Positions 27,495 to 31,687 of a DNA stretch of 64,000 bases are shown in pieces. The notes under the pieces are model-generated. The model ran no database searches. It was not told the DNA's origin and worked only from the letters and a program-made list of their open reading frames with translations. This DNA comes from Fidelibacterota bacterium (GTDB lineage: Bacteria > Fidelibacterota > UBA8477 > JABMPR01), in the NCBI GenBank assembly GCA_016845065.1, contig JAERTG010000175.1, forward strand, positions 124,001-188,000. The letters are read 5' to 3'. The position numbers and the translations under genes are program-made. Every line of letters begins with the position of its first letter. Position 1 is the first letter of the stretch.

Positions 27495-29303
27495 CTACAT
27501 CAGAAATGACTTGATTGAGCCACTTATCTGTGCTTCGGAATATTTCTTAACGTCAAAGACTTTGTAATCTAATCCCCACTTGGCGATGACGGCATCAAGA
27601 AGACTCGGCCGCACCGTCCAAATCATCCTTCTTTTACTCTTAACCAGTTCATTCATACAGATTCCCCAGCCCTCATCCTTCAATTCGAGGTGTCCAATTT
27701 CATCGATTATGACGATATTCCCTGATAGCTGCGGAGGAATTGAATTCAAGATTTTACATCCAAAATCAAGCCCAGGACGTCTAAAATTAAAAGGTCCAGC
27801 CTGCCATTCTGATACAGGTCCCGATCTCTCACACAGGAGTTCAGATGCTTGACTTCTAATATCAACGATCCGATAGGCATCTCTTTCATTCTCAACCCAA
27901 TCACCTATTGAATAAAAGCCATGAATATCAATTCCTTCTAAACTCTCATTCTCTATAATTGATTTAATCATGTTGGTTTTGCCATCACCAGAATTGCCAG
28001 TTAAAATGATGACTCTGGGATTATCCGAATGATGCTCCACCCGAAGATCTTCAAGTGCGGCAAGTAATTGACTCAAGGTTTGGAATGGATGTCGCCAGAT
28101 ACCATCGATTTCAGAAACACGTTTCAGGAGTTGTGGTAAAACTTCAAACGCCAGGGAAATGGAATCAAAGAGTACACCCATCCCGATGCGAGTAAACCAA
28201 TCTATGATTCGGGGATTTCGCATCTCAATACTAAGGGCTGAAAACGCAAAAATTACCAGCAATGCCCTGATCGCCATTGAGATACCGGTTTCAAGTCCAA
28301 TAAGTAACGAAGCGACACTATCCCACCCTCCTAGCAGGAGCCCGGACAAAGCCATCATGGCAATAAGCTGGATCCAGAGCTGGGGTCGTTTCAAACGTTT
28401 TAATGATCTGTTATACCTGAAGATGTTAACAGTGACATAGGCGATGACCAGAAACCCTCCGAGTGGAATCGAAAAATCACTGAGATAAGTGAGGCCCAGG
28501 ATAAGGATTATCAGATTAAACATGAGGAGAAGCACGGAATATGGCTGTCTAGCTGAAGCTACCAGGAGGCTTTCCTGATTGGAGGATGTTTCAAGTTTTG
28601 TATCGGGAAAGGAAATTGATTTCTGAGATCGGATATTTCTATACGATAGCCCCGCCACCAATGCGCCGAAGCTTAAATCAATGATGAATATGGCTCGGAC
28701 TAGATCAAAAGGAGCATCGCCCTCAAATCCAAAACTTCTTGATGCCATAAAATAGAGTTGCTCATAAAGCTTGATGAAATCAGGACCATAGGTCATGAGG
28801 AGGACAAATATTTTTTGAAATAGGCTCCATGAAACTGCTATAGCACCTCCCAGCACAAAGCCAGGCCACTTCCCCCGAAATAGCCGCACAAATAATTCCA
28901 GGATCACGCCTTCCATAAAGATACCAATCATGGGTCCAAAGATGATGGCTGAGGGAGATATGGATTTCATTGTGGCAGTAACAAGAGCAGTCCGCCAAAA
29001 TAATCCTTTGACTGGCCATAACTTGTAGCCATTGATCATGAGAATCAATCCTACTGAAGCCAGAAAGGTTCCCGAAAAGGGGATATGTAAATTATGGAGA
29101 AAACTACCCAGGATGATTTCAATGGAAGCCCAAAGACTACCTAACATAGCAGCCTTAAGCCAGGTGTCAGGTAAAACCTTGCGGTTCCTTTGTGCAGCCC
29201 CTAAAGGGCTATGATCCTTCATACTAGATTCATTGAAGGATGAATATTTTGTTTCAACATGACTTCTCTTTCCAAATACGGGAGCTGATTTCCTCATTTC
29301 CAA
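27495..29303 (-). CDS. Three-part fusion: ECF-type S-like and T-like membrane domains plus THEP1-like NTPase
   Basis: 602 residues, three regions. Residues 45-225 are about six hydrophobic helices (LGSLWASIEIILGSFLHNL, then FGPMIGIFMEGVILELF) resembling a substrate-binding S component of energy-coupling-factor vitamin transporters. Residues 255-420 form further helices ending in SISLAFEVLPQLLKRVSEID, which looks like the EcfT/CbiQ coupling region. Residues 430-602 are a P-loop NTPase with Walker A GNSGDGKT (436-443) and Walker B IVIIDEIGHLEL, like THEP1 nucleoside triphosphatases, not an ABC ATPase (no LSGGQ). Role unknown; a transporter energised by an unusual NTPase is one reading. Starts at TTG 29303 or ATG 29297; ATG 29222 is also possible. 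Confidence 0.65.
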   Translation of the reverse strand: MEMRKSAPVFGKRSHVETKYSSFNESSMKDHSPLGAAQRNRKVLPDTWLKAAMLGSLWASIEIILGSFLHNLHIPFSGTFLASVGLILMINGYKLWPVKGLFWRTALVTATMKSISPSAIIFGPMIGIFMEGVILELFVRLFRGKWPGFVLGGAIAVSWSLFQKIFVLLMTYGPDFIKLYEQLYFMASRSFGFEGDAPFDLVRAIFIIDLSFGALVAGLSYRNIRSQKSISFPDTKLETSSNQESLLVASARQPYSVLLLMFNLIILILGLTYLSDFSIPLGGFLVIAYVTVNIFRYNRSLKRLKRPQLWIQLIAMMALSGLLLGGWDSVASLLIGLETGISMAIRALLVIFAFSALSIEMRNPRIIDWFTRIGMGVLFDSISLAFEVLPQLLKRVSEIDGIWRHPFQTLSQLLAALEDLRVEHHSDNPRVIILTGNSGDGKTNMIKSIIENESLEGIDIHGFYSIGDWVENERDAYRIVDIRSQASELLCERSGPVSEWQAGPFNFRRPGLDFGCKILNSIPPQLSGNIVIIDEIGHLELKDEGWGICMNELVKSKRRMIWTVRPSLLDAVIAKWGLDYKVFDVKKYSEAQISGSIKSFLM

Positions 29304-30153: not shown

Positions 30154-30176
30154 GTAGCTGGATTATAGAAAATCAA

Positions 30177-30207
30177 AGAGCCCTCTATATGCAGGGCTCT
30201 TTTTTTG
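30177..30207 (+). terminator. Rho-independent terminator after rubrerythrin
   Basis: AGAGCCCT (30177-30184) pairs with AGGGCTCT (30193-30200) and is followed by seven T. Confidence 0.88.
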
Positions 30208-30217
30208 TGAGATAAAC

Positions 30218-30592
30218 TTAAGAAGTTCCGGGATGTTCGTCCAGGTCCAGCCAGGCCCAGCCCACCAGAATAAAAACGAAGACAACAATTACCATAAAGG
30301 GTTGCGACAGCAATTCAGGGAATTGAATACCATAACTTAAAATGGTGCGGGAAATGGTTAGTATCGATACTTCAATAGGTCTCCAGAAGTAGATTAACAT
30401 TCCAGCACCCCACAAAATAAGAATTGTATTTAGCATTAAGGCGAACCTATCCATGAAGAATAGCTTTTCAGGATTGAGTGAAGCTGGTATTGCCAGTAAT
30501 TGATGCTCAAGATGAGCTGGTGGATCCTCCCAGGATTTTTCAAGTAATTTGTCGATACCATCTTGTGAGTCAAAATTTTCAGGTCTCATCAT
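30218..30592 (-). CDS. Small membrane protein, putative anti-sigma factor
   Basis: 124 residues: a hydrophilic, acidic N-terminus of about 45 residues, then two membrane helices (roughly 52-70 and 98-116). No zinc-finger Cys/His motif of classical anti-sigma factors is seen. It begins inside the 3' end of the ECF sigma factor gene (14-nt overlap), with GGAGG five bases before its ATG. Position, size and topology fit a membrane-bound anti-sigma factor, with the N-terminus binding the sigma factor; this is inference from context, since the sequence itself is not one I recognise. Confidence 0.55.
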   Translation of the reverse strand: MMRPENFDSQDGIDKLLEKSWEDPPAHLEHQLLAIPASLNPEKLFFMDRFALMLNTILILWGAGMLIYFWRPIEVSILTISRTILSYGIQFPELLSQPFMVIVVFVFILVGWAWLDLDEHPGTS

Positions 30593-31130
30593 AGACCTCC
30601 AATAATAGTTTCCGTAAGTTTTGTTTTGCTCTTCGGATATGTGATTTCACGGTATTCAAGGGAATCTCCATGATATCAGCAACTTCAGAGTATTGAAATT
30701 CCTTTAAATAGTACAGGGTAATAGCATCAGACTGAAGCTTTGGTAAATTTGAGATAGCCTGTCTGATCTGGTTTTTCTGAACGTCCTGATAAAAAATCGC
30801 TTCAACATCACCTTTCTCCTCCACCAACTCTAGGTCCTCACGATCATCCAACGATACCATATTCAATGAATTCCGAGCTTCCCTTGAGATCATGGTGTGA
30901 CAAACATTAAGTGCAATTCGATAGATCCAGGTACCTAATTGGGAATCATTCCGAAAATTGCCTAATCCCTTGTAGACGCGCATAAAAGTCACTTGGCATA
31001 TGTCTTCAGCCAAAGTGGTCTGATTACTTTTCATGAGCGCTAGATTGTAAATTCGGTCGCTATGATCTCTAACAATCTCCTGAAAAGTTTGCTCTATTTT
31101 ACTTGAGCGATTGGTAATCATATTGATCAT
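30579..31130 (-). CDS. ECF (group 4) RNA polymerase sigma factor
   Basis: Sigma-70 region 2 begins at TFQEIVRDHSDRIYNLAL with the core-binding LAEDICQVTFMRVYKGL, and region 4 at AISNLPKLQSDAITLYYLKEFQYSEVADIM-type sequence, with the helix-turn-helix completed by PLNTVKSHIRRAKQNLRKLL. I place the start at ATG 31130 (183 residues; ATG 31121 also possible). Longer frames to GTG 31169 would run through a promoter-like element whose transcript should begin near 31132, so the mRNA may be leaderless. The next gene is a candidate anti-sigma factor, and the divergent neighbour carries the same promoter signature, implying autoregulation. Confidence 0.88.
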   Translation of the reverse strand: MINMITNRSSKIEQTFQEIVRDHSDRIYNLALMKSNQTTLAEDICQVTFMRVYKGLGNFRNDSQLGTWIYRIALNVCHTMISREARNSLNMVSLDDREDLELVEEKGDVEAIFYQDVQKNQIRQAISNLPKLQSDAITLYYLKEFQYSEVADIMEIPLNTVKSHIRRAKQNLRKLLLEVYDET

Positions 31131-31138
31131 ATTAATAC

Positions 31139-31168
31139 TTAGACCCATAAAGATGACATTTTGTTGCA
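31139..31168 (-). promoter_or_regulatory. Candidate ECF-sigma promoter of the sigma factor gene
   Basis: On the minus strand TGCAACA (31168-31162), a 17-bp gap, then GTCTAA (31144-31139). The same two elements with the same gap occur on the plus strand at 31212-31241. The -35 AAC core and GTC-containing -10 fit ECF sigma promoters. Confidence 0.6.
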
Positions 31169-31211
31169 CATTCCTGAAACATTTCTTTTAGTAAAAATAT
31201 TATCAAATAAC

Positions 31212-31241
31212 TGCAACAAATGTGATTCGGAAGTGGTCTAA
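31212..31241 (+). promoter_or_regulatory. Candidate ECF-sigma promoter of the divergent membrane protein gene
   Basis: TGCAACA (31212-31218), a 17-bp gap, GTCTAA (31236-31241), matching the divergent element at 31139-31168 in both boxes and in spacing. Transcription would start near 31248, ahead of the AGGAG site and the ATG at 31281. Confidence 0.6.
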
Positions 31242-31280
31242 TAACACGATGAAACAAAAACCAATTACAGGAGCATTATA

Positions 31281-31628
31281 ATGGAAGAAATGATTCCCAT
31301 CAGCATGTTTTTATCAGCCGCAGCCATAACGATTGTGGCTCTATACTTGAAACTTCAAAAAAGAAGAGTTGAAAGTGCAGAAATATTGGCCGCTATCGAG
31401 AAGGGCATCGAAGTCAAATTCCCTGATGAAAATAAATCCCGATTATTACCTGGTCTCATATGGCTTTTTCTGGGAATAATTATGACCCTAGGTATGGCTT
31501 TGGCCATCCCAGCTGACGCACCGTCCGGAATGTGGGTTTGGGGTTTAATCCCATCGGCTGTCGGAGCAGCTTATCTCATCGTCTATCGCATCGAACAACA
31601 AAAGGGAGATTCTGAAGAGAACTCCTAA
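31281..31628 (+). CDS. Small membrane protein, DUF6249-like
   Basis: 115 residues with an N-terminal membrane helix (about 5-23), a charged cytoplasmic segment with EILAAIEKGIEVKFP, and two further helices (about 53-70 and 79-97). The layout and the AIEKG motif resemble DUF6249 proteins, which often lie beside ECF sigma factors. Function unknown. It is transcribed away from the sigma factor from an apparently identical promoter, so it is a likely member of that regulon, possibly a second sensor or modulator. A strong terminator follows. Confidence 0.6.
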   Translation: MEEMIPISMFLSAAAITIVALYLKLQKRRVESAEILAAIEKGIEVKFPDENKSRLLPGLIWLFLGIIMTLGMALAIPADAPSGMWVWGLIPSAVGAAYLIVYRIEQQKGDSEENS

Positions 31629-31656: not shown

Positions 31657-31687
31657 AAGAAGGCAGGGGGTCCTGCCTTCTTTTTTT
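31657..31687 (+). terminator. Rho-independent terminator
   Basis: AAGAAGGCAGG (31657-31667), loop GGGT, CCTGCCTTCTT (31672-31682), then T-run to 31687. Ends the small membrane protein transcript. Confidence 0.9.

Follow-up and report, generated by a model that had tools for sequence, protein, structure and literature searches.

A conserved ECF sigma factor unit with matching divergent promoters and a DUF6249 membrane protein in Candidatus Neomarinimicrobiota: a probable autoregulated circuit

Organization of the locus

The window, that is, the whole stretch of 64,000 nucleotides of a marine bacterium analysed here, carries a short gene for a stress-type (ECF) sigma factor and a divergently oriented gene for a small membrane protein, separated by an intergenic region with two promoter-like sequences. 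The segment 31128–31281 runs from just within the sigma gene up to the DUF6249 start. The features of the locus are the following:

30175–30202 (no strand assigned): terminator-like hairpin separating the end of the operon from the convergent rubrerythrin gene
30218–30592 (−): ORF for a 124-aa protein with two predicted membrane helices, putative shortened anti-sigma factor; 14-nt overlap with the sigma gene
30579–31130 (−): ECF sigma factor, 183 aa, identified with Pfam and TIGR02937; putative leaderless start at ATG 31130
31139–31168 (−): predicted promoter of the sigma/anti-sigma operon, TGCAACAAAATGTCATCTTTATGGGTCTAA; −35 TGCAACA 31168–31162, N17, −10 GTCTAA 31144–31139
31169–31211: A+T-rich stretch of 43 bp separating the two −35 boxes
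31212–31241 (+): predicted promoter of the DUF6249 gene, TGCAACAAATGTGATTCGGAAGTGGTCTAA; −35 TGCAACA 31212–31218, N17, −10 GTCTAA 31236–31241
31281–31628 (+): DUF6249 membrane protein, 115 aa, three predicted helices; narrowly over the curated cut-off of PF19762 (33.4 bits, cut-off 33)
31665–31681 (+): terminator-like hairpin past DUF6249 and ahead of a TonB-receptor-like gene

The rubrerythrin and TonB-receptor-like neighbour genes are outside the unit. An inverted repeat of the kind GAAGGCAGG..CCTGCCTTC also lies downstream of DUF6249 in relatives. Further along the minus strand, positions 27495–29303 encode a predicted protein of 602 aa that starts with a hydrophobic portion and ends in an NTPase_1 domain (55.8 bits), an unusual combination.

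The sigma factor is a short protein in which regions 2 and 4 are present (PF04542, Sigma70_r2, residues 19–86; PF08281, Sigma70_r4_2, residues 120–172 of 183), and it scores 96.6 bits against the sigma70-ECF model TIGR02937, for which the cut-off is 42.9. With regions 2 and 4 only, it belongs to the ECF (group 4) sigma factors. Judged by sequence, its own promoter has the AAC-containing −35 and GTC-type −10 boxes expected for this group.

Relatives of the locus belong to Candidatus Neomarinimicrobiota, nearly all of them assembled environmental genomes. Fifteen of the 19 genus genomes contain the sigma gene, and the same 15 contain DUF6249 (one cut by a contig end); the other four (G001, G002, G014 and G017) have neither. 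Across the phylum, 29 of 245 genomes gave a DUF6249 match over the cut-off. A sigma gene is in reach at 25 of the 29 DUF6249 loci found with the Pfam model in the phylum. In another set of 25 DUF6249 loci, the sigma gene lies within 1.5 kb of DUF6249 in all 25 and is divergent from it in 24. Genome G010 (records JABIFX01) contains three sigma/anti-sigma/DUF6249 units (L032, L053 and L055), with sigma factors 66–75% identical to that of the window, which may reflect either duplication or a mixed assembly (contamination 5%).

Conservation of the paired promoters

An earlier note on this DNA had reported identical boxes with the same spacing on both strands between the ECF sigma gene and the membrane-protein gene, and spacers alike in length and unlike in sequence. 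Both statements proved exact: a pattern search of the 64-kb window for TGCAACA-N17-GTCTAA returned exactly two matches, one per strand and each with 0 mismatches, and the two 17-base spacers are identical at 6 of 17 positions. The shuffle figure for the window (53 of 100 shuffles reaching 2 matches) refers to matches with up to 2 mismatches and does not cover the exact pair. In the organism's own assembly of 4,048,860 bases the window pair constitutes the only exact matches, and the reversed-pattern control gave 0.

An exact search of the 19 genus genomes gave 28 matches (control 0). Twenty-seven of these matches fall in the sigma/DUF6249 intergenic region, as 13 pairs and one single match in G016, where the sigma side reads CGCAACA; the 28th lies inside an ORF of G017, a genome lacking a sigma hit, that is TrkH-like on reading of its translation. 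Sequence conservation over 16 genus units is concentrated in the boxes: per position, the −35, the −10 and the spacer hold 1.88, 2.0 and 0.62 bits on the sigma side and 2.0, 1.88 and 0.54 bits on the DUF6249 side. In the same 16 units, the two spacers of one unit have on average 5.8 of 17 positions in common, the mean for sigma-side against DUF6249-side spacers of different units being 5.0. As spacers within a unit share so little, the promoter pair is not simply a recent duplication of DNA.

For the wider comparison 92 loci were examined, from which we left out six without DUF6249 by profile (one cut by a contig end), three without a sigma gene and two that are not divergent. The remaining 81 units gave 41 distinct divergent sigma/DUF6249 units after merging repeats of the same places, comprising 36 from Neomarinimicrobiota and five from other phyla. 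GCAAC-N17/18-GTC was present on both sides in 35 of the 41 units, all of them among the 36 of Neomarinimicrobiota; sets of dinucleotide-shuffled sequences contained on average 0.0 two-sided units, and reversal of the sequences left 0. The earlier note had made conservation of the boxes in relatives a test of its proposal, and these counts uphold it. The boxes of L112 pass on one side only, its sigma-side −10 reading CTCTAA, and the five units of other phyla fail this pattern. With the looser G[CA]AAC-N17-19-GTC, 37 of the 41 units qualified on both sides (shuffle mean 0.005). Taken together, the paired promoters are real and conserved, and the adjacent sigma factor very probably reads both.

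Lineage-specific boxes and promoter geometry

Several lineages depart from the window sequence in the same way on both sides. GTCTTA serves as the −10 box on both sides of L045 and L046, and TGCAACT as the −35 box on both sides of L048, L051 and L122. In L050 both promoters have GTCTTC and a spacer shortened by one base, and L052 has a shortened spacer with GTCTTT/GTCTTC. In Acidobacteria-type genomes the spacing is longer, and both promoters read TGAAAC-N19-GTC in L151 (Bryobacteraceae) and CGAAAC-N19-GTC in L157 (Terriglobia), the latter with overlapping −35 boxes. L152 and L163 fit the pattern poorly. The two sides differ in the −10 box in L040–L042 (GTCTAA vs GTCAAA) and in L047 (GTCTTA vs GTCAAA), with GTCAAA on the DUF6249 side only. 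Judging by counts, changes of the boxes by lineage thus appear often to be shared by both sides.

The gap between the −35 boxes varies far more. It measures 40–45 bp in 14 of 16 genus units and 32 and 104 bp in the other two, 22–35 bp in most other families and 14 bp in L112, and it is zero or overlapping in L122, L048 and L157. Because the distance between the promoters is free, each half goes with the gene it precedes rather than with its counterpart.

Three individual cases merit description. A GC-rich palindromic insertion accounts for the 104-bp gap of L044/L116 (G018) and leaves both promoters intact. The −35 boxes of L157 (2780–3010) overlap in GTTTCGAAAC, so that the two promoters could exclude each other. 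The DUF6249 genes of L160 and L161 have no sigma gene in reach, yet AGTAAC-N18-GTCTAA stands in front of both.

Search for a wider regulon

The earlier note had offered the pattern as a lead to the rest of the regulon and had suggested a genome-wide check for enrichment near other gene starts. Neither expectation was borne out. Exact matches in the own assembly occur only at the unit; with up to 2 mismatches the assembly gave 94 matches vs 71 for the control, not clearly above it, and the 92 beyond the exact pair all carry 2 mismatches, none carrying 1. In the 19 genus genomes the looser pattern TGCAACW-N17-GTCWAA gave 31 matches (control 4), of which 30 are the unit itself. Exact or near-exact boxes in these genomes are found only at the unit, apart from the match within the TrkH-like ORF.

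Eight genomes of a distant family yielded 15 matches, 14 of them at units (control 1). The remaining match, L170 (G069:C1:585881-585910, −), is intergenic, lies upstream of a secreted Peptidase_M1-like gene and represents the third promoter-like site of its type in the one-contig genome G069. The Peptidase_M1-like protein scores 17.4 bits, under the cut-off, and is a weak candidate target, the control likewise giving 1. Two further genomes gave eight matches, four at units and four inside ORFs (control 1). The circuit therefore looks closed on itself in these pattern searches, which leave room for weakly matching targets.

Start codons of the two predicted transcripts

The longest reading of the sigma ORF begins at GTG 31169 and overlaps its own promoter; the plausible start is ATG 31130, 8 nt past the −10 box. 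The first usable sigma ATG lies 8–10 nt past the −10 box in 12 of 16 genus units. In L040–L042 it lies at 17 nt, preceded by AGGAG in L040 and L041, and L044 has a TTG at 9 nt and an ATG at 27 nt past the −10 box. In all 20 units measured for the first in-frame sigma start, two of them in the genus, this start is 3–13 nt past the −10 box. ECF transcripts usually begin about 6–9 nt after the −10 box, so most sigma mRNAs would be leaderless, and the sigma start codon should be at the predicted transcript start in most units.

The DUF6249 side was measured in 22 units in which the start either opens directly onto DUF6249 or is situated well downstream, past another gene. Here the first in-frame start is at least 20 nt past the −10 box in 20 units (L164, at 9 nt, is an exception), and a Shine-Dalgarno-like sequence is present in most of the measured units.

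In 13 of the 16 genus units an ATG occurs 7 nt past the DUF6249-side −10 box, in a conserved stretch like ACGATGAA. In the window (31242–31280) this ATG opens an ORF of 10 codons whose stop overlaps the DUF6249 start (TAATG). We considered a conserved upstream peptide and rejected it, as inspection by eye showed that the first codons alone are common and the ends vary.

The anti-sigma candidate

A gene overlapping or abutting the sigma end was found in 29 of 36 loci. Three of the 36 have no sigma gene in reach and four have no listed candidate (L151 does show one elsewhere); the non-abutting extra ORFs of L152 and L153 were set aside. The window's 124-aa protein shares about 38–44% identity with homologues in the same place (L032–L038, L053 and L055) and has no match in Pfam or NCBIfam. 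Its predicted structure (mean pLDDT 75.1, pTM 0.34) places two short helices (residues 10–19 and 26–34) before the membrane with low confidence.

Among the sigma-overlapping or abutting genes, those of L155, L163 and L164 encode the zinc motif Hx3Cx2C, and the L164 protein is a zf-HC2 protein (37.7 bits). The window protein does not have this motif, nor do 26 of the 29 loci in which a candidate was identified. The window protein likewise lacks a recognizable class I (ASDI) four-helix N-terminal domain, having two short helices in a weak model and no Pfam match. In the alignment, it and most Neomarinimicrobiota proteins lack the zinc-type N-terminal part and keep a PPxLxxxLxxIP-like segment before the membrane. 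A profile of this alignment run against PDB sequences returned two chance-level matches only.

According to excerpts of PMC7406223, class I anti-sigma domains contact region 2 through helix 4, and CnrY binds sigma in the same two places through its first and last helices. The alignment lacking the N-terminal part, this mode of helix binding as excerpted there and the two short helices of the model lead us to read the 124-aa protein as shortened. It is most likely a shortened anti-sigma factor, as suggested by its position, the gene overlap and its partial similarity to zf-HC2 proteins.

The DUF6249 protein

The AlphaFold model of DUF6249 (mean pLDDT 82.2) comprises helices at residues 4–40, 55–75 and 84–113. 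The protein is 74–88% identical in close relatives, far better kept than the anti-sigma candidate, and the segment that follows helix 1 contains an invariant A/E/K/G core. A fold search of the model against the PDB gave no match at E ≤0.001 (best E 1.7), and a search of plasmids gave no match to the DUF6249 protein of L151. In the open-access literature we found no published function for the family, the single paper listed with the word being one on a plant kinase.

In the small-genome relatives L156 (2080–2403) and L048/L051, a gene for a 107-aa lipoprotein-like protein lies between the divergent promoter and DUF6249, and a DUF4097 protein is encoded 3′ of DUF6249 in L160 (over the cut-off) and L164 (under it). 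These neighbours hint at the cell envelope. We think that DUF6249 may act in the membrane as an effector or feedback partner.

Proposed circuit and alternative explanations

We assign a probability of roughly 0.87 to a closed autoregulated ECF sigma circuit in which the sigma factor would read both divergent promoters. The earlier note had proposed an autoregulated unit in which sigma and a putative anti-sigma lie opposite a second membrane protein, and phylum-wide conservation and frequent two-sided lineage changes argue strongly for it. We infer the reading of both promoters by the sigma factor, the anti-sigma function, the leaderless sigma mRNA, an envelope signal and a role for DUF6249, which would fit together as follows. 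At rest, the 124-aa membrane protein would hold sigma at the membrane via two short cytoplasmic helices, and an envelope signal would free it. Freed sigma would then direct RNA polymerase to the two outward-facing promoters with the same boxes. The sigma-side promoter would yield more sigma together with the co-encoded membrane anti-sigma factor, a positive loop damped by the latter, and the other promoter would yield the inner-membrane protein DUF6249, the sole further output that is conserved.

The same intergenic sequence could be read as an operator: TGTTGCA...TGCAACA would be a dyad to which a dimeric transcription factor binds in the space separating the divergent genes, GTCTAA being incidental. 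The two −35 boxes do form an inverted repeat, and those of L151 and L157 are close or overlapping as a palindrome. A two-site operator should, however, have a conserved geometry of its own. The half-sites range from overlapping to 104 bp apart, whereas the AAC-to-GTC distance stays at 17–18 bp in 35 of 41 units; what is preserved is only how far apart the two boxes of each promoter lie. The −10 boxes are conserved as much as the −35 boxes, and within the unit no protein other than the sigma factor is predicted to bind DNA. On these grounds we rejected the operator, which we consider most improbable. Real promoters might also be served by another sigma factor encoded in the same genome, the local one having other targets. 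A first look at the own genome with the sigma query gave 14 candidates, and it may therefore encode several ECF-type sigma factors. Against this, the four genus genomes without the sigma gene also lack the promoter pair, the G017 match lying inside a gene, and box changes follow the adjacent sigma factor across lineages, which makes such a sigma factor very unlikely as the reader of these promoters. That the two promoters are read by the adjacent sigma factor is thus well supported at the level of sequence.

Roles within the circuit are less firmly assigned. DUF6249 could itself be the anti-sigma or a co-anti-sigma factor providing negative feedback, with the overlapping 124-aa protein as an accessory; its much higher identity among relatives and its invariant core after helix 1 would suit such a part. 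The overlapping gene, however, matches zinc-type anti-sigma factors in position and partly in sequence, and DUF6249 occurs without an adjacent sigma gene in 4 of 29 loci, and we judge this assignment unlikely. Returning to the circuit with the 124-aa protein as anti-sigma factor, we tentatively raise an extension that is conceivable but rather doubtful: a phylum-spanning ECF switch lacking a regulon, in which DUF6249 would be a dedicated membrane feedback partner helping to set sigma activity, the anti-sigma factor would keep only the last helix region of a class I domain, and a leaderless sigma mRNA would stand against a Shine-Dalgarno-led DUF6249 mRNA.

Comparison with known systems and significance

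An autoregulated ECF locus is a known kind of system. Operons of the SigW-RsiW and RpoE-RseA type have in common with the window unit a sigma factor of regions 2 and 4 only, an AAC-type −35 box, a self-promoter and an overlapping membrane-protein gene downstream of sigma, and PDB sequence relatives of the window sigma include SigH, SigW, SigE and CnrH. Unlike those operons, the window unit shows one divergent conserved target and no wider regulon in our searches, and the putative anti-sigma factor of the genus has no recognizable zinc or class I domain. The alphaproteobacterial general stress locus, EcfG-NepR with divergent phyR, likewise pairs a sigma operon with a divergent regulator gene under matching promoters; there, in contrast to the window unit, the divergent product is a response regulator and not a membrane DUF6249 protein, and no general regulon was seen here. 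The class II pair CnrH/CnrY offers a further parallel, since CnrY binds via two short helices according to excerpts of PMC7406223 and the model of the window protein likewise shows two short helices. The window protein nevertheless has no sequence match to any solved anti-sigma factor, and its relatives suggest that a zinc-type domain lost its first part, and not descent from CnrY.

The open-access literature yielded nothing relevant on Marinimicrobia with ECF sigma or anti-sigma factors and no description of this system, although an earlier mention in an ECF re-classification is possible. The features that make this variant worth describing are the conserved DUF6249 pairing, a wider regulon not being found, the putative shortened anti-sigma factor and the probable leaderless sigma start. 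They raise the question of the purpose of a sigma factor with a one-gene output. As a natural ECF circuit with matched paired promoters and boxes varying by lineage, the unit is useful for the study of ECF specificity and as a source of orthogonal promoter parts. For this phylum it supplies a concrete promoter specificity, and for the DUF6249 family a first functional context.
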